The position numbers and the translations under genes are program-made. 64,000 nucleotides of DNA from Marinomonas colpomeniae (lineage in GTDB: Bacteria; Pseudomonadota; Gammaproteobacteria; Pseudomonadales; Marinomonadaceae): NCBI RefSeq assembly GCF_014803385.1, contig NZ_JACYFC010000004.1, forward strand, positions 186,001 through 250,000, given 5' to 3'. The notes below the pieces were generated by a model. The model did not search any database and was not told the origin of the DNA. It saw only the letters and a list, made by a program, of their open reading frames with translations. Below are positions 24 to 41,159 of the stretch, piece after piece (the first letter of the stretch is position 1; every line of letters begins with the position of its first letter).

Positions 24-2294
24 ATGAAAATGAAAGAACCTATCAGCAGTGAGCAAACACATAAAGTAAAGTTGGCTCTTATTGGTGTGACATGTGCTGG
101 TTGTGTTAACACAATTCAAAAAGCACTTAACACTCTTCCAAAAACCGATTCTGTTGACATTAATTTTGCTAATCGTACTGCATTGATAACTACGGCTCAG
201 ATGACAGATTATTTAATTCAAACTATTCAGTCTGTTGGTTATGACGCAAAAGAAATATTGGATGAAGATAAAGCGGAAAAAGAGCGTGTTAAATCAGACT
301 CGAATGAATATCGGGCCAAAATGATCAAAAGTTATATCGGCCTAGGTGTGGGTATTCCATTGATGGTTTATGGGCTACTTGGTGGTCCAATGAACGTCAA
401 TACTTTAAACGAACAGCTGATTTGGTTAGTTGTTGGGTTGATTACTTTCATTATTTTATGGAAAGCAGGAAAGCACTTTTTCGTTGGCGCAGCTAAAGCA
501 TTTGTTAATCGTAATGCCAACATGGACACCTTGATCGCATTAGGAACAGGTACCGCATGGCTTTATTCTATGATCGTTGTGTTGTTCCCGCAATATTTGC
601 CAGAAGGTGCTCGACACCTTTATTTTGAAGCTACGGCTATGATCATTGGTTTGATCAATCTGGGACAAGCGCTGGAACTTAAAGCCAGAGGACGAACATC
701 TCAATCAATAAGGAGATTGCTTGATCTAAGAGTGAAAACCGCACTGGTTATTCGAGATGGTAAGGAGTTGGTTTTAGCCGTTGAAGAGGTTGTTGTAGGC
801 GATAAAATTAGAGTGCGGGCAGGTGAAAAAATCCCCGTTGACGGTATTGTGCTTGAAGGACAGAGTATTATTGATGAGTCTATGCTGACAGGAGAACCTA
901 TGCCTGTAAAAAAAGAAGCGGGCGACACTGTTTCCGCTGGAACCATTAATGGTCAGGGCAGCATCGTATTGGAGGCTAAAAAAGTAGGTAGCGATACAAT
1001 ACTCGCCCAAATTATTAACATGGTATCCAATGCTCAAAACTCTAAGCCTCCTATTAATCGTTTGGCAGATAATGTGTCGGCCATATTTGTACCTTCCGTC
1101 ATTATTTTATCTATTCTTACTGCGCTAATTTGGTACAACTTCGGCCCGCAACCAAGTATGGTTTATATGATAGTCGCCGCTACGTCTGTTTTGATTATAG
1201 CTTGTCCTTGTGCGCTAGGTTTAGCCACGCCGATTTCAACAATGATAGGGATAGGTAAAGCCGCTGAGTTTGGAGGTCTAATTCGTAATGGCGAAGCATT
1301 ACAAAAGGCCAGTGAATTAAACGTCATTGTGCTAGACAAAACAGGAACCATTACTCAAGGGAAACCATTAGTGACTAATTACAATAGTTTTTCCGATAGA
1401 AAAGATGGTTTGAATCTTATTGAATTACTTGAAAAAGGATCTAATCATCCATTAGCAATGGCACTCATTCATTATGCTAATGAACACAAGGATGCTACAG
1501 CACTGGTTGAGGGAGACATATCAGGTTTTGAATCCATTACAGGAATGGGAGTAAAGGCTACTTATGGTCAAGATCGTCTTCTACTTGGCAATCAAAAACT
1601 TATGCACGAACATAATATTGATTTAGAGGTTTCTGAAGTAATGGCTGATCAATGGGAGCAACAGGCCAATACGGTAACTTACTTTGCCATAAATGATAGT
1701 TTAATGGCTCTGTTTGGAATAAGTGATCCAATTCGTGATGATGCTAAAGAAGCCATAGCGCGATTTCATCAGCAAGGCCTTCGTGTTGTTATGTTAACTG
1801 GCGACAATCAAAATACAGCAAAAGCCATTGCATTAGAGGCTAATGTAGATGAATTTTATGCTGAATTAATGCCCGCAGATAAACTTGATTGGATAAAGAA
1901 AATCCAACAGCAAGGCAAGGTTGTTGGCATGGTGGGAGACGGTATAAATGACGCGCCGGCACTGGCTCAATCTGATGTAGGTTTTGCAATCGGCAGCGGT
2001 ACCGATGTCGCCATCGAGAGTGCCGATATAACTTTGATGCGAGGTTCCTTGCATGGCGTCTCCGATATCATCGCTATCAGTTCTGCGACAATGAAAAACA
2101 TAAAGCAAAATCTATTTGGTGCTTTTGTTTATAACTCTCTGGGAATACCAATAGCGGCAGGATTACTATTTCCTCTTACTGGGTGGCTTTTGAGCCCTAT
2201 TGTTGCTGGTGTTGCCATGTCATTGTCGTCTATTACCGTAGTGACAAATGCAAATCGACTACGTTTTTTCACACCGAAATCAAATAATAAGTAG
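24..2294 (+). CDS. copA: Copper-exporting P1B-type ATPase (CopA family)
   Basis: Inner-membrane pump that uses ATP to export Cu(I) from the cytoplasm. Seen: one N-terminal HMA metal-binding domain with GVTCAGC (Cys24 and Cys27), the transmembrane CPC motif (residues 394-396) followed by ALGLATP, the phosphorylation motif DKTGTIT with Asp438, the hinge [10 protein letters not shown], a YN pair in the next-to-last membrane segment and the MSLSS motif in the last one; the last three are the Cu(I)-pump (P1B-1) signature. The start is ATG 24, because GAAGGAG lies 6 bases upstream; an in-frame TTG at 9 has no such site. At 756 residues it has the usual length for a one-HMA CopA. The small peptide gene at 2304 is probably translationally coupled. 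No CueR-type regulator is visible, but the left edge cuts the context. Confidence 0.95.
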
Positions 2295-13865: not shown

Positions 13866-14918
13866 CTATTCGCTAAGAGTGTTAGGAAAAACAACCTCTC
13901 CGGCGTTAACGACGACAACTTCATCATCCAGGGTTATAGTGCAATTTCGTAGAGGGATGTCCATGTGACATGGTGTTTTACGTGTGCCACCAACCTCTGT
14001 ATTCGGCCCTGTAGAGAAGAGGAAGTTACCGTTAAATGCTCTGGCATCCATACACATACCATCGTTTTTATCATGTAGGCCCATCGCCGTCCATTGAGCT
14101 CGTGGTTGTAAACCCCAGCCTACATGTGAGATGCCGTAGACTTCAGGATCCTTAAAGTAAGCCATGTAATCACGGAGGTATTCTGCTTCAAAGCCACCGG
14201 TAATGTCAGTAATAAAACCGTCTTTGATTGTTAGCGTTATCGACTCGCGGCAATAGGTTTTGAATGGAAGTAAAATATCGCCAATATCAATAACCAGTTT
14301 GCCATTCGCGCTTTCTTCATTTGGCCAGCTGAATAAGAAGCCACTTGGCCAGTGATCCCAGCGTCCGGGTTCGTCGGCAAAACCGTATTCTGTGACGGTA
14401 GGGTAGTCGCCTAATGACATTGTGAAATCACTGCCTGCGGCCGAGGTGACTCTCATTTTCTTAGCTGTTTTCAATACTTTTTCAGCGGCGACGACACGAC
14501 GCTTGTCTTCTAAAGTTGGCAATATTCTAGCCAATACTTCAGGAGGTTCGACTGCCAATAAAATACGGGTTCCTGTTTTAAGTATTTGCTCTTGTTCTGG
14601 AGAATGCAAAAGCATCATTGTATCAACAATTAAATCGGCGGCTTCTAGGGCGGTTTGTGCCGCTTTATTTCCTGTTAAAGGTGTGTCGCCGCAATAGGCT
14701 GTCATGTCGTTACCCATGGCTTTAGGTGGGTTAAGAGCGGGAAGTTCTACACCATACACTTTAGCGCCTAAGCGTTGAGCTGCATTAAAAGCCGCATCGA
14801 CAATTCTAGGGTTTGAGTAGTGGCTTTTAAGAATCGCTACACTTTCTGAGGGCGTTACGTTAGAGAGCGTCAGGACGTGTTCGAACATTTCTACTAATTG
14901 ATTATCACTAACAGGCAC
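13866..14918 (-). CDS. nicX: 2,5-dihydroxypyridine 5,6-dioxygenase NicX
   Basis: Opens the ring of 2,5-dihydroxypyridine to N-formylmaleamate with an Fe(II) centre; it belongs to the M29 aminopeptidase-like fold, unlike ordinary ring-cleaving dioxygenases. Candidate iron-site residues in the C-terminal half include those in YGISHVGWGLQP, AMGLHDKNDGMC and TPCHMDIPLRN. The start is GTG at 14918 (read on the minus strand), since AGGAG stands 7 bases upstream and the protein then has 350 residues, the usual NicX length. A longer frame to 14972 has no such site. It is divergent from nicC, and the spacer holds two related operators. Confidence 0.93.
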   Translation of the reverse strand: MPVSDNQLVEMFEHVLTLSNVTPSESVAILKSHYSNPRIVDAAFNAAQRLGAKVYGVELPALNPPKAMGNDMTAYCGDTPLTGNKAAQTALEAADLIVDTMMLLHSPEQEQILKTGTRILLAVEPPEVLARILPTLEDKRRVVAAEKVLKTAKKMRVTSAAGSDFTMSLGDYPTVTEYGFADEPGRWDHWPSGFLFSWPNEESANGKLVIDIGDILLPFKTYCRESITLTIKDGFITDITGGFEAEYLRDYMAYFKDPEVYGISHVGWGLQPRAQWTAMGLHDKNDGMCMDARAFNGNFLFSTGPNTEVGGTRKTPCHMDIPLRNCTITLDDEVVVVNAGEVVFPNTLSE

Positions 14919-34088: not shown

Positions 34089-34132
34089 CAAAGATAAGAG
34101 GTATAGAATGCCTCTTGTCTTTGATTTTTTTT
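34089..34132 (+). terminator. Terminator after the oxygenase gene
   Basis: CAAAGATAAGAGG (34089-34101) and CCTCTTGTCTTTG (34111-34123) pair over 13 bp with one G-U, followed by eight T. It insulates the operon that begins at 34268. Confidence 0.85.
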
Positions 34133-34232
34133 CAATCAATCATTAGGGTATTACATCTGAAGTATATTCCCTGAAGAACAGAGAGAAAGATAAGCGTTGT
34201 AACATAAAGGTAACTTTTTAAAGGTAGAATGA

Positions 34233-34267: not shown

Positions 34268-35905
34268 ATGTCGTCACAGCCTTTGGCTATTCAAGAAAAT
34301 CTCTACTTTCTACTGAATGAAGTTGGAAAACATTACAGTCTTGTAGATCTTTTTTTTAAAACCTCATCAATTGATATTTTACCGCGTATTAAAGCTCGTC
34401 GAGGTTATGTTCAAACACTCCGAGAAAAAATTGAAATCGAATGTGTGAATATGACAAAAAGTCGTAAATCTAGCACATCACACAGTGTTCGTATTGATGC
34501 AATACGCGCTTTATCAAATGCGTTAGACAACGTTTCTCGTTACTACTCTGATTGCGTTCAAGAAGGAACATTAACTCAACCTTATGGACACCCTAGTGCT
34601 TCATTATGTCGTAAGTTAATCCGTCGAATAGATCGTTCTTTAAATCTTGTTAAACTAGGGTTAGATAAATCACAGCGCCGAACGGGCATTAAGTTAGGTC
34701 GTCGTACGCAAGGCATGTTGAATTCGTATGATGACATTCAAGCAGTAACTCTAGCTGCCAAAAACGTGCTGAATGATGAGCAACTACAAGCCTCTATCTT
34801 GACGAACTTTGCACTGAAGTGCGTAATTCAACAATTAGCCATTGTGGGTGAATCTTTAATAAAGGCTGATTTAGGGCAGGTTGTTAGTCTACAAAACTAT
34901 GAACATTTGCGTAATAGCGCGTCATCGTTAAATTATAGCTTGAGTGATTTAAAAATCAGGCGTCTTGCACTCACACGTTCTGGTAGTGCGATTGCCTCTA
35001 TTTCTCATAAGAATGAATCTGGGAAGGATATACTGGCTGTATACAAAGAAGGCGACCAAAATAAATTGGCTGAAGAGATCGTAGGTGTTAATAATTGGCA
35101 AAAGGTAGATCCAAATATTGCGCCAGATGTATTATCTCATACCACTAGAAATGGGCAATCATCAGCTCTTTTGATTGAGCACCTTCCCGGAAAAACATTC
35201 GAAGCTTTACTCCTTAATGAAGAAACGCATCTGCTAGAATCAGCTCTAAAAACACTGTTTACAACACTTAATCGCACGTGGAAGCTGACTTATACCCCAG
35301 AGCACTGTAATGCAAAATTCATGCAGCAGCTTGAAAAACGAATTGACGATAGTGCTAAAGTTCATCCTGATTTTTTCACGCCAGAACATCGTATTTGTGG
35401 GCAGGTAAGTCTAAGTTTCAAAAAGCTAATACGGCTTGTTACAGAAAAAGAGCACCGTTGGACAGTACCATTTTCTGTGCTGATTCACGGAGATTTTAAT
35501 GTTGATAATGTGATTTATGATGAAGTAGATCGTCGTATTTATTTCATAGACTTACATCGATCTTCCTATTTCGATTATGTCCAAGATATTTCTGTGTTGA
35601 TGGTTTCTATTTATCGACTACAAGTGCTGAGTGGATCAACCCGAGAGTTGATGATGCAAAGTGCAATCCAAATTTATCAATTTGGGCGTCGTTTTGCTAA
35701 GCGGCAGGATGATGAAACTTTTGAATTGCGATTGGCCGCAGGTCTTGCTCGTTCTTTTGCGACTTCAACCCGCTTTATTTTTGATAAAAAACTGGCGTCG
35801 CGTATGCATCTTCGTGCGCGTTATTTACTTGAGCATTTAGCGCGAATTACGCCAGAGCAAGAACCTAACTTCAAACTTTCCCTTAAGGAACTGTATGCTG
35901 AATAA
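34268..35905 (+). CDS. Aminoglycoside-phosphotransferase-like kinase, first gene of the GAK-type operon
   Basis: A 545-residue protein. The C-terminal part (about 260-500) has a kinase fold of the APH/choline kinase type: the catalytic loop HGDFNVDNV (His407, Asp409, Asn414) and the metal-binding Asp428 in IYFIDLHRS. The N-terminal 240 residues are helical and rich in Lys, Arg and Ser; I do not recognise them. The product may phosphorylate a small molecule or a protein. It overlaps the ATP-grasp gene by 11 bases and leads a six-gene operon. Not an antibiotic-resistance gene on this evidence. Confidence 0.78.
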   Translation: MSSQPLAIQENLYFLLNEVGKHYSLVDLFFKTSSIDILPRIKARRGYVQTLREKIEIECVNMTKSRKSSTSHSVRIDAIRALSNALDNVSRYYSDCVQEGTLTQPYGHPSASLCRKLIRRIDRSLNLVKLGLDKSQRRTGIKLGRRTQGMLNSYDDIQAVTLAAKNVLNDEQLQASILTNFALKCVIQQLAIVGESLIKADLGQVVSLQNYEHLRNSASSLNYSLSDLKIRRLALTRSGSAIASISHKNESGKDILAVYKEGDQNKLAEEIVGVNNWQKVDPNIAPDVLSHTTRNGQSSALLIEHLPGKTFEALLLNEETHLLESALKTLFTTLNRTWKLTYTPEHCNAKFMQQLEKRIDDSAKVHPDFFTPEHRICGQVSLSFKKLIRLVTEKEHRWTVPFSVLIHGDFNVDNVIYDEVDRRIYFIDLHRSSYFDYVQDISVLMVSIYRLQVLSGSTRELMMQSAIQIYQFGRRFAKRQDDETFELRLAAGLARSFATSTRFIFDKKLASRMHLRARYLLEHLARITPEQEPNFKLSLKELYAE

Positions 35906-36806
35906 ATCTGAACAAGGTCTCAAAATCGGGGTGATTGGAATTCCTGGTAAATGGTCAACGGAAGTGTTGGCGGACCGTCTTGAAGCAAGAACAGGATTTC
36001 GTGCAGTGATGGATATGAATGATATCGAATTGCACCTAGACACAAATAAAGCCTTTTGCAACGGATTAGATTTAACAAAGTTAGATGGTTTGATTGTTAA
36101 AAAAATTAGTCAAGTGTATGCGCCGAGCACAGAGGATAGAATCCATATACTGTCGCATTTAGAATCACTTGGTGTATCTGTATTTAGTCCGACTAACAGT
36201 ATGGGGAAATTGATTAACCGTCTTAGCGGTACATTGGCATTACAACAAGGCAATATCCCTATGCCAAAAACCAGAATCACAGAATCGGTTGATTTAGCAT
36301 TTAATATAGTTCGTGAGTTTGGCTCCGCTATTTTGAAACCATTATATTCAACAAAAGCACGAGGAATGGTATTTCTTCGTGCAGAAGACAGTGATGAGTC
36401 TGTACTTGCTCAGCTTGAAGAATACACAAAAACGCAATCTTTGTTTTATATACAACAAGCGCTTAATTTAAATGGTCGTGATTTAGGTATGGTGTTTGTG
36501 GGCGGTACATATTTTTGTACTTATGCTCGTGTTGCCGATTCTGATGCTTGGAATACGACAATTCACAGCGGTGGACGCTATGAAATGTTTGAACCTGATG
36601 AAGACCTTATTGAATTGGGGTGTCGCGCTCAAGCTTGTTTTGATATGAGTTTTACTACTGTTGACATCGCTCTTACTGACCAAGGCCCTGTTGTATTTGA
36701 AGTGTCTGCTTTTGGTGGTTTTAAAGGAGCCTTAGACGGTTGTAATTTGGATGCGGCAGAAGCGTATGCAGATTATGCATTAAAAATAGTAAGGAATAAG
36801 CTATGA
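35895..36806 (+). CDS. ATP-grasp ligase-like enzyme of the GAK system
   Basis: A 303-residue ATP-grasp enzyme, RimK-like in layout. Seen: an N-terminal domain (KIGVIGIPGKWSTEVLADR), SPTNSMGKLINRLSGTLALQ, the ATP-grasp lysine region GSAILKPLYSTKARGM, and an acidic metal site near DQGPVVFEVSAFGGFKGAL, which replaces the usual E-x-N; the enzymes of this class join a carboxylate to an amine through an acyl phosphate. It matches, from memory, the ATP-grasp member of the GAK set of NCBI family models. It overlaps both neighbours (11 bases before, ATGA after), so the products are needed in fixed ratio. Confidence 0.85.
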   Translation: MLNKSEQGLKIGVIGIPGKWSTEVLADRLEARTGFRAVMDMNDIELHLDTNKAFCNGLDLTKLDGLIVKKISQVYAPSTEDRIHILSHLESLGVSVFSPTNSMGKLINRLSGTLALQQGNIPMPKTRITESVDLAFNIVREFGSAILKPLYSTKARGMVFLRAEDSDESVLAQLEEYTKTQSLFYIQQALNLNGRDLGMVFVGGTYFCTYARVADSDAWNTTIHSGGRYEMFEPDEDLIELGCRAQACFDMSFTTVDIALTDQGPVVFEVSAFGGFKGALDGCNLDAAEAYADYALKIVRNKL

Positions 36807-37957
36807 GTCACTCTTTTAACAATCATGCATTCAGCAATTTTTCACTAAATGCCCGCCCATTGAGTGATCAAGCGTTACAAACCGCAATGGCGTCTTGTGA
36901 GCACCTTTTAACATTGACGTTTGGCGCATTGACTGTGAATGTCCATACTAATCAAGCCGTAATTTTAGATGAATTGAATGACTATTATAAAAGCTATCGA
37001 CAAAGTTCAGAAAATGAACAGTCGATAAATATTTATGCGATAGAGCATGGCGAAGTAATTGAGTCTGTTGAATGGTTGGATGTACCCCGTGAAGCCGGAA
37101 AACAAGGTAAAAAAGAAGGGTATTTAGACTGTTTCTCTGAAAATGAAGTGTTCGAAGGGCGTTGGATTAAAAAGTTTAAAACGGGCATGTTGTTGCTTCA
37201 GCGTGTTGAAAGCCCCGTTGCTATTGGGCCTTGTATAGAAAACATGGCGCAGATTATTAACTTCATTAACAATCAGTTTTTAAATCTTCATCTTCGTGCT
37301 GGTTATTTGTTAGGGCACGCATCAGCCTTTAGTGTAAACGGTAATCTAACGGCAATTGCTGCAGGCTCTGGCGGTGGTAAGTCTACTTTGATGTTGCGGT
37401 GTTTAGAAAAAGAAACGCGTGAATTTATCACGAATGATCGCATCTTAATTCAACATTCAGCTGATGGTGTTAAAGCGGTTGGCGTTGCCAAACTGCCTCG
37501 GGTAAATCCAGGCACCTTACTGCATTCCCATGGGCACCGCTTACGCCATATTTTAACTAAAGAGCGACAACAACAGCTTCTTGATATGTTACCTGCCGAT
37601 TTATGGGTATTAGAAGAAAAATACGATGTTCAAATTGAAGACGAATATGGTCCAAACCGTGTTGGATTAACAGGGAAACTAGTTAATTTAATTATGTTGG
37701 ATTGGTCTTTTTCATCTGGTAAACCAACGCAAATCGAGCGTGTTGATTTGAGCCTTGAGCCAAAAGTAATAGAGGGTTTACGTAAACGTCCAGGGCCTTT
37801 TTATCAAGATAACTCAGGCTCTTTTGTTGACCTAATCGCTTGTGAATCAGTTGAAGTCTATTGTGCAGAGCTGGACAGTGTTCGAGTATTTCGCTTAACA
37901 GGATGTATCGATTTTGATAAAGCCTACGAACTTATCGACACTTTGGATGCGCTATGA
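36803..37957 (+). CDS. HprK-related kinase B
   Basis: A 384-residue P-loop kinase related to HPr kinase/phosphorylase. The Walker A motif GSGGGKST is at 188-195 (Lys193), preceded by the HprK-like SAFSVNGNLTAIA and followed by FITNDRILI, where the acidic residue would bind Mg. There is no HPr protein in this window. The N-terminal 160 residues have no recognised domain. The family is named HprK-related kinase B and is a defining part of the GAK system. Start ATG overlaps the previous stop (ATGA) and the stop overlaps the next start. Confidence 0.87.
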   Translation: MSHSFNNHAFSNFSLNARPLSDQALQTAMASCEHLLTLTFGALTVNVHTNQAVILDELNDYYKSYRQSSENEQSINIYAIEHGEVIESVEWLDVPREAGKQGKKEGYLDCFSENEVFEGRWIKKFKTGMLLLQRVESPVAIGPCIENMAQIINFINNQFLNLHLRAGYLLGHASAFSVNGNLTAIAAGSGGGKSTLMLRCLEKETREFITNDRILIQHSADGVKAVGVAKLPRVNPGTLLHSHGHRLRHILTKERQQQLLDMLPADLWVLEEKYDVQIEDEYGPNRVGLTGKLVNLIMLDWSFSSGKPTQIERVDLSLEPKVIEGLRKRPGPFYQDNSGSFVDLIACESVEVYCAELDSVRVFRLTGCIDFDKAYELIDTLDAL

Positions 37958-38637
37958 CCGCTAAATTTGCTTTGATTCGTCATGGTGCTTATGAACAATT
38001 GCCTGAAGTGCCAAGTGCTTTACAACCGTTCCCTTTAACGATGGAAGGGGCAAAAGAAGTCCGTCGACAAGCTCAATTGTTGGCTAAATGGTTGTCAAAA
38101 ACTGGCGAAAAATTGAATCCCATTGTGGATACTTCAACCTTGTTACGGGCTTATCAAACGGGTGAGATTTATCTTGAGGAGTTAAAAGATTTTTTCCTTG
38201 AAACACCTAAAATTCAAACTACATTTAATTTATGTGAGCGAAGTGTTGGCGCAGTCGCTAACCTAACGATTGAAGAAATTGAGCGTATTCTATCGCTTGA
38301 TCCTAGATTTGAATCGCCTTCCAAAGATTGGAAGTCAGACAGTTATTATCAACTCCCATTTGATGGCGCGGAGTCACTTATTCAAGCAGGTGAACGTGTT
38401 GCAGAACATATTAATAGTTGGCAGCGTGAGGCAAGTGGTGGTCTTAAATTATTTATTGGTCATGGTGCTGCTTTTCGACATGGCGCGAATTATTTGAACG
38501 CGATTGAATTTAAATACATTAAAAAACTTAGCATGTTTTATGGTCACCCAGTGGTATTCGAATTTACTGAGAATTTACTTTTGAGGCAAATTTTTGGTGA
38601 GTGGAAGCAGCGTCAAATTAATGATGTACCAGATTAA
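37954..38637 (+). CDS. Histidine phosphatase (phosphoglycerate mutase-like) family protein
   Basis: A 227-residue member of the histidine phosphatase superfamily. Seen: the phosphohistidine motif ALIRHGAYEQ (Arg9, His10, Gly11), a conserved Arg in TLLRAYQTGEI, and the second His in FIGHGAAFRHGA. These residues fit a working phosphatase or mutase. Coupled by ATGA to the HprK-like kinase, which suggests that kinase and phosphatase act on the same or linked phospho-compounds. Confidence 0.85.
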   Translation: MTAKFALIRHGAYEQLPEVPSALQPFPLTMEGAKEVRRQAQLLAKWLSKTGEKLNPIVDTSTLLRAYQTGEIYLEELKDFFLETPKIQTTFNLCERSVGAVANLTIEEIERILSLDPRFESPSKDWKSDSYYQLPFDGAESLIQAGERVAEHINSWQREASGGLKLFIGHGAAFRHGANYLNAIEFKYIKKLSMFYGHPVVFEFTENLLLRQIFGEWKQRQINDVPD

Positions 38638-38673
38638 AGACATACAATATTAATAATGGACAGGGCTTTTACT

Positions 38674-39999
38674 ATGCAAACCCGATTACCAAACATTCCA
38701 GTATGTAAAGAACATGCTGAAATCATTCTAAGACTACCGACTGAATGGTCTACATGGCCAAAAGACAGTAGCTCTTGCAATGGCGCGGCACGCACGCCTA
38801 TAAAAAAGCCAGCCAAATTTAATAAGCACAAACTAAAATGGCCAAGCCGGCCTGTGATATTTATTTCAGACCCTCATGCAGATGCAACAGCATTTGAAGC
38901 ATCGCTTATAGCCTCTGGTGTTGCCGTTCAAAAAAAAGCCGGACTACAGCAATTAAAGTTGACTAAAGAAGGTCGAAAAGCCGAAATTATTATTGGTGGT
39001 GATTGTCTTGATAAAGGCCCAAGTAACTTATCTTTACTGCGTAGTATTAAGCACCTTTATAAATTAGACGCTCGTATCACTCTGTTAGCAGGCAATCATG
39101 ACCTACGTTTATTAATGGGCTTACTGGCATTACAGCGAAAAAAACAGAACATTGGTAATCAGCATTTCTTCGTTCGTATGGGTAAAAAAGTTATTCCGCT
39201 TTTTAAAGAAGTCTTTGAACAGTATTTAGACAGAAGTAATTGGGATAAAAAAATTCCTGATGAAGACTCTTGTCGAAAAGTACTTTTTCCGAATGAGAAA
39301 TGGTTTAAAGAGTTTCCTTATCATGCTGCTGGCATTTTAACAGCAGAAGGGATTGAGCGAGAAGTTCATAAAATGCGTTCCAAAGCGAGTAGCTTTGAAA
39401 AAAATTGTGCTGAGGTTGGCCTTAGTTTACGGCACATTTATGCGGCATCGTTACAATGCCAGAAATTGTTTTTAGAGAAAAAAGGTGAATTCTACTGGTT
39501 TTTCAAAAAAATGAAGTTAGTAGAAAAACGTGGATCCTTCTTATTTTTACATGCCGGTTTAGATGATGCCATGAGTGAATTATTACTTAAAAATGGTACT
39601 AACTACGCGAATAAAGCTTTTCATCGTAATTTAAAACACATGGACTTATTTGGCTTTTATTACAGCTCTATTGCCAACACATTTAGAACAAAATATAGAG
39701 ATGCAGATTTACCATTAACGGAACGAGGCGTTAATGCAATACATAAAGCAGGAATTCATTTTGTGGTTCAAGGTCATGTGAATCGGCAAGAAGGGCAGCG
39801 AATCGCCATTAAGAAAGGTTTAATTCATATTGAAGCAGATATTACCTTGGATGAAAACTCACGTAAAAATGAAGGGTTGGAAAGCTTTGGTATAGGCGCA
39901 ACTTTGATTGGTAAGAAGCAAGGTTTGATTGGTATCAGCTGTGATTACCCAACAGCTAAAGTATTGAAACCACAAGAATTAGGTGAAATGTATGAATGA
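38674..39999 (+). CDS. Calcineurin-like metallophosphoesterase
   Basis: A 441-residue phosphoesterase with the full metal-site set: FISDPHADATAF (D-x-H), IIGGDCLDKGPS (GD), LLAGNHDLRLL (GNHD), FLHAGLDD (H) and VVQGHVNRQEG (GH-x-N). The fold is that of PPP-like phosphatases. Lysine-rich helical inserts lie between GNHD and the later His. ATG 38674 is preferred because AGGG lies 8 bases upstream; ATG 38656 is in frame. It is the fifth gene of the GAK-type operon and adds a second phosphatase. Confidence 0.85.
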   Translation: MQTRLPNIPVCKEHAEIILRLPTEWSTWPKDSSSCNGAARTPIKKPAKFNKHKLKWPSRPVIFISDPHADATAFEASLIASGVAVQKKAGLQQLKLTKEGRKAEIIIGGDCLDKGPSNLSLLRSIKHLYKLDARITLLAGNHDLRLLMGLLALQRKKQNIGNQHFFVRMGKKVIPLFKEVFEQYLDRSNWDKKIPDEDSCRKVLFPNEKWFKEFPYHAAGILTAEGIEREVHKMRSKASSFEKNCAEVGLSLRHIYAASLQCQKLFLEKKGEFYWFFKKMKLVEKRGSFLFLHAGLDDAMSELLLKNGTNYANKAFHRNLKHMDLFGFYYSSIANTFRTKYRDADLPLTERGVNAIHKAGIHFVVQGHVNRQEGQRIAIKKGLIHIEADITLDENSRKNEGLESFGIGATLIGKKQGLIGISCDYPTAKVLKPQELGEMYE

Positions 40000-40038
40000 T
40001 TTCTATCAATAATTGAAATAGACAAGGTACGGTAATAA

Positions 40039-40305
40039 ATGAAATCAAAAACTGAGTTTAAACATGAAGCATTGCTTGATCCTGCAGACATTCAAGACTT
40101 ACTTAAATCTATTTCAAAAGGTTTGGGGAAAGGGAGACTAGAGTTTTCCGATGACAAAGGTACTTTGTCTTTAGACCCTCAAGGTTTGTTGTATTTAAAA
40201 GTAACCGCTTCTGAAGAAGACGATCGTCAGCAGTTTGATATTAAAGTTCGATGGGAAAAAAAGCCTAAAGCATTGAGTAAAAAACCACCAAAAATAGAAA
40301 GTTAA
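40039..40305 (+). CDS. Amphi-Trp domain protein
   Basis: A small, highly charged protein of 88 residues. The pattern FKHEALLDPADIQDLLKSIS, then KGRLEFSDDKGTLSLDP, and FDIKVRWEKK with a Trp after alternating hydrophobic strand residues, is that of the amphi-Trp domain, a small domain named for its amphipathic strands and invariant Trp and found with the GAK system. It may be the carrier or substrate on which the kinases, phosphatases and ATP-grasp enzyme act (inference). Last gene of the operon; a strong terminator follows. Confidence 0.85.
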   Translation: MKSKTEFKHEALLDPADIQDLLKSISKGLGKGRLEFSDDKGTLSLDPQGLLYLKVTASEEDDRQQFDIKVRWEKKPKALSKKPPKIES

Positions 40306-40318
40306 ATTTTTTTATTTT

Positions 40319-40374
40319 AGCAAAGAGCATCAATCTTTCCACAAAAGTAGATGCTCTTTGCTACGGTGTTTTTT
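40319..40374 (+). terminator. Terminator of the GAK-type operon
   Basis: AGCAAAGAGCATC (40319-40331) and GATGCTCTTTGCT (40350-40362) pair perfectly over 13 bp, followed by seven T at 40369-40375. The T-run touches the end of the convergent amidotransferase gene. Confidence 0.9.
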
Positions 40375-41159
40375 TAAGCGCTCATTTCTAGAAAATCTGG
40401 TAAGGGCGCACTTTTGTAAGTGTTATTTTTAATTCTTGCTATATGTCCAGCTGGAATCAATACCCAACCTTTACCAGAAAACTCTAAAGGTTCAGACCCA
40501 ATCACAATGTGATCATCGAAGGTTTTGCAAAAAAGACTTGGTGCTTTGTCATCACTAGAGAATCGAATAGCAAACATTTCTTCACCGTCGGATAATACGG
40601 CAGTAAAACGAAAGGCTTCCGTTATACCTTTGCTTTCCATCAGTGCCAATATCTGACTTAGGGTATCAATAATTGCTTTCTCAGGGTCTATTTCTAATCC
40701 ATTAGCAATCATCAATAAAAAAATCACCTCGGAATCTGTTGCTCCTTGCCGTGCGCTGTATAAATACTCTGGAATTAATCGATCTAACTGCCAGCGGAGT
40801 AATTCATAGTCTCCAATTTGGCCGTTATGCATAAACAACCAATTCTTATACCCAAAAGGGTGACAGTTTGAGCGGTTCGTAGCGGTACCTGTAGATGCTC
40901 TAACATGGGCAAAGAACAAACCACTTTTGATGTGCTTAGCTAAACTCTTGAGGTTGCAATCACTCCAAGCGGGCAATATTTCATGATACAAGCCAGGTTC
41001 TGCTCTTTCGTCATACCAGCCTAGACCAAAGCCATCAGCATTAACGGTTACTTCAGATTTTTTCGCACTTAAGCTCTGGTGGACTAAGGAGTGTTCTTGT
41101 TCAAATATTAACGACTCAAGATAAACGGGCTCACCTTGGTAAGCCATCCAACGACACAT
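40374..41159 (-). CDS. Class II glutamine amidotransferase (YafJ/EgtC-like)
   Basis: N-terminal-nucleophile amidohydrolase of 261 residues. Seen: Met-Cys start, MCRWMAYQGEP, so Cys2 becomes the N-terminal nucleophile after methionine removal; VNADGFGLGWY; LFFAHVRASTGTATNRSNCHPF; and FMHNGQIGDYELLR, where the Asn and Gly form the oxyanion site; then TDSEVIFLLM. Relatives include E. coli YafJ and EgtC of ergothioneine synthesis. No ergothioneine genes are present here, so the plain family call is safer. TAGGAG precedes the ATG. A 17-bp hairpin sits right behind the ribosome site. Confidence 0.88.
   Translation of the reverse strand: MCRWMAYQGEPVYLESLIFEQEHSLVHQSLSAKKSEVTVNADGFGLGWYDERAEPGLYHEILPAWSDCNLKSLAKHIKSGLFFAHVRASTGTATNRSNCHPFGYKNWLFMHNGQIGDYELLRWQLDRLIPEYLYSARQGATDSEVIFLLMIANGLEIDPEKAIIDTLSQILALMESKGITEAFRFTAVLSDGEEMFAIRFSSDDKAPSLFCKTFDDHIVIGSEPLEFSGKGWVLIPAGHIARIKNNTYKSAPLPDFLEMSA

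Follow-up and report, generated by a model that had tools for sequence, protein, structure and literature searches.

A GAK-type operon of Marinomonas colpomeniae with a predicted PhoU-APH kinase fusion, a conserved Pho box and a possible role in phosphate homeostasis

We analyzed a six-gene operon in a 64,000-nucleotide stretch of the Marinomonas colpomeniae genome (contig NZ_JACYFC010000004.1, positions 186,001 to 250,000), hereafter called the window. Six co-directional open reading frames (ORFs) lie on the plus strand at 34268-40305 (Table 1). A check of their coordinates confirmed this arrangement and the overlaps of 11, 4 and 4 bases between the first four genes, both of which had been described in a first-pass annotation of the same DNA. 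That annotation assigned the operon to the GAK type, and the NCBIfam models bore this out: the 303-, 384- and 88-residue proteins exceed the curated cut-offs of TIGR04356 grasp_GAK (428.7 bits versus 300), TIGR04355 HprK_rel_B (272.6 versus 200) and TIGR04354 amphi-Trp (65.5 versus 31), respectively. Together with the Pfam matches to APH, His_Phos_1 and Metallophos (calcineurin-like phosphoesterase), they agree with the predicted set of two kinases, two phosphatases and an ATP-grasp enzyme. The catalytic motifs of the kinases and phosphatases are intact, as judged by conservation over 30-59 homologues per family. The GAK families have already been named by NCBI, and the window locus belongs to this known kind. 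In line with the earlier statement that no function is assigned to them, none of the open-licence papers found names GAK, HprK-related kinase B or amphi-Trp. What the earlier reading missed is the link to phosphate, namely a predicted PhoU-like domain on the lead kinase and a Pho box upstream of the operon.

Table 1. Features of the operon and its flanks (positions in the window, or residues where so marked)
Feature	Position	Strand	Remarks
Terminator-like hairpin of the preceding 2OG-Fe(II) oxygenase gene	34089-34123	+	16-pair stem, then T run (hairpin scan)
Pho-box-like direct repeat TGTAAC-N5-GGTAAC	34198-34214	+	11/12 half-site bases
-10-like element TAGAAT	34225-34230	+	ten bases past the Pho-box-like repeat
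ORF 1, PhoU-APH kinase	34268-35905	+	545 aa; Pfam APH
Predicted domains of the lead kinase	residues ~6-202; ~229-530		six-helix PhoU-like; APH/EcKL-type kinase (sequence, profiles, AlphaFold)
ORF 2, GAK ATP-grasp enzyme, RimK/MptN/LysX relative	35895-36806	+	303 aa; TIGR04356
ORF 3, HprK-related kinase B	36803-37957	+	384 aa; TIGR04355
ORF 4, histidine phosphatase (branch 1)	37954-38637	+	227 aa; PF00300, 59.7 bits
ORF 5, ApaH/PPP-like metallophosphoesterase	38656-39999	+	447 aa; PF00149, 31.1 bits
ORF 6, amphi-Trp protein	40039-40305	+	88 aa; TIGR04354
Inverted repeat and T run in the gap between the operon and the convergent amidotransferase gene	~40320-40375		read by eye

The lead kinase had been described as APH-like. 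Pfam and the motifs uphold the APH domain, in which K260, H407-G408-D409-x4-N414 and D428 are shared by 95% or more of 56 sequences, and the fold matches of the structural model agree with an APH-like kinase part. Overlooked was a PhoU-type domain in the ~200 residues that stand N-terminal to it. The Pfam model PF01895 (PhoU) matches seven of 22 lead-kinase homologues with a best E value of 2.3e-24, and two homologues score 76 and 72 bits. The N-termini of the deltaproteobacterial and Phycisphaerae members bear LERIGDALLNIGEA-type motifs, and a profile built from them finds five solved PhoU chains (E 2e-11 to 3e-17). The corresponding Marinomonas profile aligns with this profile end to end, over 198 columns, with a probability of 94.6% and an E value of 6.7e-8. 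AlphaFold models residues 6-202 as six long helices and the remainder as APH-like, at a mean predicted local distance difference test (pLDDT) score of 88.9. On the strength of the homologues, the profile-profile link and the helix pattern, we assign the lead kinase as a predicted PhoU-APH fusion.

Upstream of the operon, the window carries the direct repeat TGTAACATAAAGGTAAC at 34198-34214. Repeats such as TTGTCACATAACTGTCATC are found at the other Marinomonas loci at a near-constant distance of ~70 bp from the start codon, and all 21 distinct Marinomonas upstream regions match at least 11 of the 12 half-site positions, compared with 25 of 300 control regions. The 3.7-Mb genome contains 16 perfect Pho-box matches versus nine for a reversed-pattern control. 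Two of the 16 lie ahead of pstS, and four more ahead of genes for a PhoX phosphatase, a PHO4 phosphate permease, a PAP2 phosphatase and an OmpR-type regulator, probably PhoB. A matrix built from these six sites, containing no GAK sequence at all, gave 12.1 bits for the window promoter, a score that 1% of the 289 control upstream regions attain. The same matrix placed 19 of the 21 Marinomonas GAK promoters, including that of the window, in the top 1% of the controls, and ten of them scored above every control. The number of loci is a weaker argument than the constant position of the box and the independent matrix. The upstream sequences strongly suggest PhoB control of the operon, and do so for the genus Marinomonas only.

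The first-pass annotation had tied its reading in advance to co-occurrence of the genes across genomes, and the genes were found together in all three groups of our neighbourhood survey. The survey covered ~60 loci: 21 from Marinomonas, 19 from other Pseudomonadota and a group of 22 made up of Deltaproteobacteria and one Phycisphaerae. Because the same gene string recurs in ~60 loci, the operon is not a chance assembly. Genes for PhoU-APH, ATP-grasp enzyme, kinase B and amphi-Trp were present in 21, 21, 21 and 20 of the Marinomonas loci, in 18, 19, 19 and 15 of those from other Pseudomonadota, and in 18, 19, 21 and 20 of the third group, where several contigs end early. The four loci from other Pseudomonadota that lack amphi-Trp all sit on stretches of 10-14 kb. 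Named Marinomonas orthologues are 69-77% identical to the window proteins, and M. hwangdonensis also carries the locus. Of 50 genus genomes, 36 encode kinase B; exactly these 36 also encode the phosphoesterase, and 35 of them amphi-Trp. Between the five larger families, pairwise evolutionary distances show correlations of 0.69-0.91. Within the genus, the operon is inherited nearly all-or-none as a block. The GAK family is uncommon: among 398 Pseudomonadota genomes, 13 have the ATP-grasp enzyme over its cut-off, and among 297 genomes of the deltaproteobacterial phylum, 20 have kinase B over its own.

The phosphatases vary with lineage. In the window, the histidine phosphatase keeps the RHG motif and the second His, and the metallophosphoesterase carries the full PPP set (DxH, GGDxxDKGP, GNHD, H, GH). 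The histidine phosphatase is present in 12 of the 21 Marinomonas loci and missing in nine. Pseudomonadota GAK loci combine it with the ApaH-like phosphoesterase; a SixA-Nudix fusion occurs in 11 of 19, often with a Nudix gene in front. Deltaproteobacterial loci lack both phosphatases and carry a different, PHP-like gene instead. The proposed fixed ratio of kinase to phosphatase therefore does not hold. Some phosphatase gene is usually present in GAK loci though its type varies, and the core of the system is PhoU-APH, ATP-grasp enzyme, kinase B and amphi-Trp, with phosphatases exchangeable by lineage. The PHP-like family (~390 aa) is strongly conserved, was found in 16 of the 22 loci of the third group and in most deltaproteobacterial loci stands next to the first amphi-Trp gene (L118:12335-13492, L125:12908-14095 and homologues). 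It was labelled by eye from its HWHPEH, PHPEQ and DDTH motifs and has no match in Pfam, NCBIfam or the PDB; the PDB search likewise returned no solved relative of the window metallophosphoesterase. In two Marinomonas pontica loci (L031 and L112), the metallophosphoesterase and CofD-like genes are both split by apparent frameshifts, possibly assembly errors.

Terminators had been placed on both sides of the operon. The upstream hairpin sets it apart from the 2OG-Fe(II) oxygenase gene. On the downstream side, a 13-bp inverted repeat (AGCAAAGAGCATC...GATGCTCTTTGCT) followed by T7 is a probable terminator; its loop exceeds the length limit of the scanner. An Rfam search for an RNA element gave no match. 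The convergent gene at 40374-41159 on the minus strand encodes an EgtC/YafJ-like class II glutamine amidotransferase, which scores 196.9 bits and stays under the EgtC cut-off of 218.65.

The gene content, the homology to PhoU, the intact motifs of kinases and phosphatases, the inheritance as a block and the conservation of the Pho box lead us to favour, with moderate confidence, a GAK-type module that is tied to phosphate homeostasis, acts by phosphorylation and dephosphorylation and in Marinomonas most likely belongs to the PhoB (phosphate-starvation) regulon. Beyond these observations, we infer PhoB control, gating of the kinase by its PhoU-type domain, a small-molecule product and a carrier role for amphi-Trp. 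Phosphate starvation would lead PhoB to induce the operon in Marinomonas, and the PhoU-type domain would probably gate the small-molecule-type APH kinase according to phosphate status. The PhoU-APH kinase, the P-loop kinase B, the RimK/MptN-like ligase and the two phosphatases would then make and break down a phosphorylated product with an amino-acid cap, for which the amphi-Trp protein may serve as binder or carrier.

Several observations weigh against this reading. The N-terminus of the window kinase gives no Pfam match, and the Marinomonas N-terminal profile by itself finds no solved PhoU chains, which is the weakest point of the PhoU argument for the window. The E-x-x-x-D metal-ligand motifs of the deltaproteobacterial members are substituted in Marinomonas, including the window; we therefore call the domain PhoU-like and not a metal-binding PhoU. 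It appears degenerate and may sense or bind differently. Outside Marinomonas, Pho-box matches are weaker or isolated (10-12 of 12 positions in Marinobacter, Marinobacterium and two more gammaproteobacterial loci), and they are not above chance in Thiodiazotropha or in nearly all deltaproteobacterial loci. The genomes are related, so that the locus count overstates independence, and phosphate genes are not enriched among 68 flanking neighbours of GAK loci.

The nature of the product can be narrowed tentatively. The ATP-grasp enzyme is homologous over nearly its whole length to a LysX-type protein (PDB 3vpd, E 2e-19) and to RimK (PDB 4iwx, E 5e-19), and MptN is the best of the other curated equivalogs (143.9 bits). 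MptN, RimK and LysX join amino acids to carboxylates, and APH/choline-kinase-like folds mostly phosphorylate small-molecule hydroxyls. Because an APH-type kinase is combined with an MptN/RimK/LysX-type ligase, a phosphorylated amino-acid conjugate is favoured over a pure protein switch. At the metal-binding motif, all 56 ATP-grasp sequences read E-V-S-A-F-G-G-F instead of E-x-N, which signals a probable change in chemistry. The amphi-Trp model (AlphaFold2, pLDDT 86.7) consists of one helix and four strands, a small predicted fold that would fit a carrier or scaffold; a fold search with it against the PDB gave no match. It is conceivable, at perhaps one chance in a few, that a phosphate-starvation-induced, PhoU-gated pathway makes and degrades a phosphorylated amino-acid conjugate as a phosphate reserve or second messenger, carried by amphi-Trp.

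A protein switch, in which the HprK-related kinase B and/or the PhoU-APH kinase phosphorylate amphi-Trp and the two phosphatases reverse the reaction as in HprK/HPr, seems rather unlikely. The small protein is nearly always encoded next to the kinases, and kinase B retains a His, a P-loop and an Asp (GSGGGKST, H172 and N211-D212-R213, conserved in 59 sequences). Outside Marinomonas, 93% of 29 amphi-Trp sequences have Ser/Thr at position 11 (E-S-L-Q-D). In the alignment, however, all Marinomonas rows have Ala instead of this near-invariant Ser (27/29); L22 and W72 are invariant, but no Ser, Thr, Tyr or His is. The first-pass proposal that amphi-Trp may be the phosphorylation target is thereby weakened. 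Kinase B matches solved HprK (PDB 1jb1) at just E 0.02, among ABC P-loops that score as well. Of the two marks of an HprK protein kinase, a significant HprK match and a conserved Ser in the partner, neither was found, no Ser being conserved in the amphi-Trp clade of the window. The switch also leaves the ATP-grasp enzyme without a role, and RimK-like tailing of amphi-Trp is equally unsupported, its C-termini not being conserved. Two further observations concern this family. Marinomonas fungiae (L042, ~14040-14270) has an absent or degenerate amphi-Trp gene (a 76-aa ORF with a partial match) next to five intact genes and is the sole genome without an amphi-Trp match among the 36 genus genomes that have kinase B. 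At the deltaproteobacterial loci L121 (10968-11582), L124, L126, L127 and L130, an amphi-Trp-like N-terminus is joined to a cytochrome-c'-like XXXCH C-terminus without the CXXCH haem motif.

Turnover of phosphoanhydrides (polyphosphate, diadenosine polyphosphates or an inositol-pyrophosphate-like messenger) is in our view improbable, even though the PhoU domain on the lead kinase and the Lys/Ala-rich tails of some deltaproteobacterial amphi-Trp proteins would suit it. The closest PDB relatives of the Nudix part of the SixA-Nudix protein from other GAK loci are Ndx1, an Ap6A hydrolase, and human DIPP1, but the window has neither of the Nudix genes. The metallophosphoesterase resembles ApaH at 27.7 bits, far under the cut-off, and the ATP-grasp enzyme has its nearest relatives in the MptN/RimK ligases rather than in known ATP-grasp kinases.

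We give little credence to a pathway with CofD-like and MptN/CofF-like steps that builds a cofactor-like tail of phosphodiester and glutamate, such as those of F420 or sarcinapterin. The MptN score noted above speaks for it, as does the CofD-like gene that adjoins the operon in Marinobacter, Marinobacterium and most deltaproteobacterial loci. CofD-like is, however, no obligate partner, being absent from several more than 90% complete genomes that have a GAK locus, and its second-best model is YvcK, not CofD. The earlier reading that CofD-like and XXXCH are missing was right for XXXCH (TIGR04358), of which the genome has none and which was found in deltaproteobacterial loci only, and right for the operon as regards CofD-like; the latter (TIGR04357, 488.8 bits) lies elsewhere in the same genome (G000:C8:540295-541386). 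Since it sits at another locus and occurs in all 50 genus genomes, including 14 without kinase B, CofD-like is uncoupled from the operon in Marinomonas, and no Pho box was found upstream of it there at 11 of 12 positions. As CofD-like varies among loci and XXXCH turned up at deltaproteobacterial ones only, neither is treated as defining GAK. Downstream of CofD-like, locus L104 (10557-11570) encodes a CheY-CheC-like response regulator of 337 aa, and a 333-348-aa gene occupies this place in the other Marinomonas examined. Anti-phage or mobile-element cargo, suggested by the patchy distribution (36 of 50 genus genomes), is highly implausible given that none of the six proteins matches a PADLOC family and that the correlated family distances agree with co-inheritance.

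For the favoured link to phosphate homeostasis, the PhoU-kinase fusion and the conserved Pho box point to phosphate limitation as the first concrete condition in which to search for a GAK product, and they do so in culturable marine bacteria. The value of the finding lies in this sharp, testable condition; the function itself we infer. Coupling of a PhoU domain to a catalytic kinase would, moreover, offer a handle on the long-standing question of what PhoU senses. Neither the PhoU fusion, the Pho box nor the lineage-specific phosphatase swapping of GAK loci was found in the open-licence literature.

Among known systems, HprK/HPr kinase-phosphorylase shares with kinase B and amphi-Trp the pairing of a kinase gene with that of a small protein and the H...P-loop...D arrangement. 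The resemblance is marginal and limited to the P-loop region, inspection shows Asn at the first position of the HprK DD pair, and the HPr-like nature of the small partner is only putative. The ATP-grasp enzyme resembles the RimK/MptN/LysX ligases over nearly its full length and departs from them at the E-x-N metal site. The lead kinase has the Lys, HGDxxxxN and metal Asp of APH-type kinases. With PhoU, the phosphate transport regulator (PDB 1xwm, 4q25), it shares a predicted six-helix domain whose LERIGD/NI motifs are kept in deltaproteobacterial homologues; it differs in the fusion to an APH-type kinase and, in Marinomonas, in the loss of the metal-ligand motifs. The closest counterpart is the GAK system itself (TIGR04354-TIGR04358), of which the grasp, amphi-Trp and HprK_rel_B families stand here in one operon, all over their curated cut-offs. 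Elsewhere, GAK loci also contain SixA-Nudix, Nudix, PHP-like or CofD-like genes; the window, with CofD-like unlinked and XXXCH missing, adds a histidine phosphatase, an ApaH-like phosphoesterase and a Pho box.

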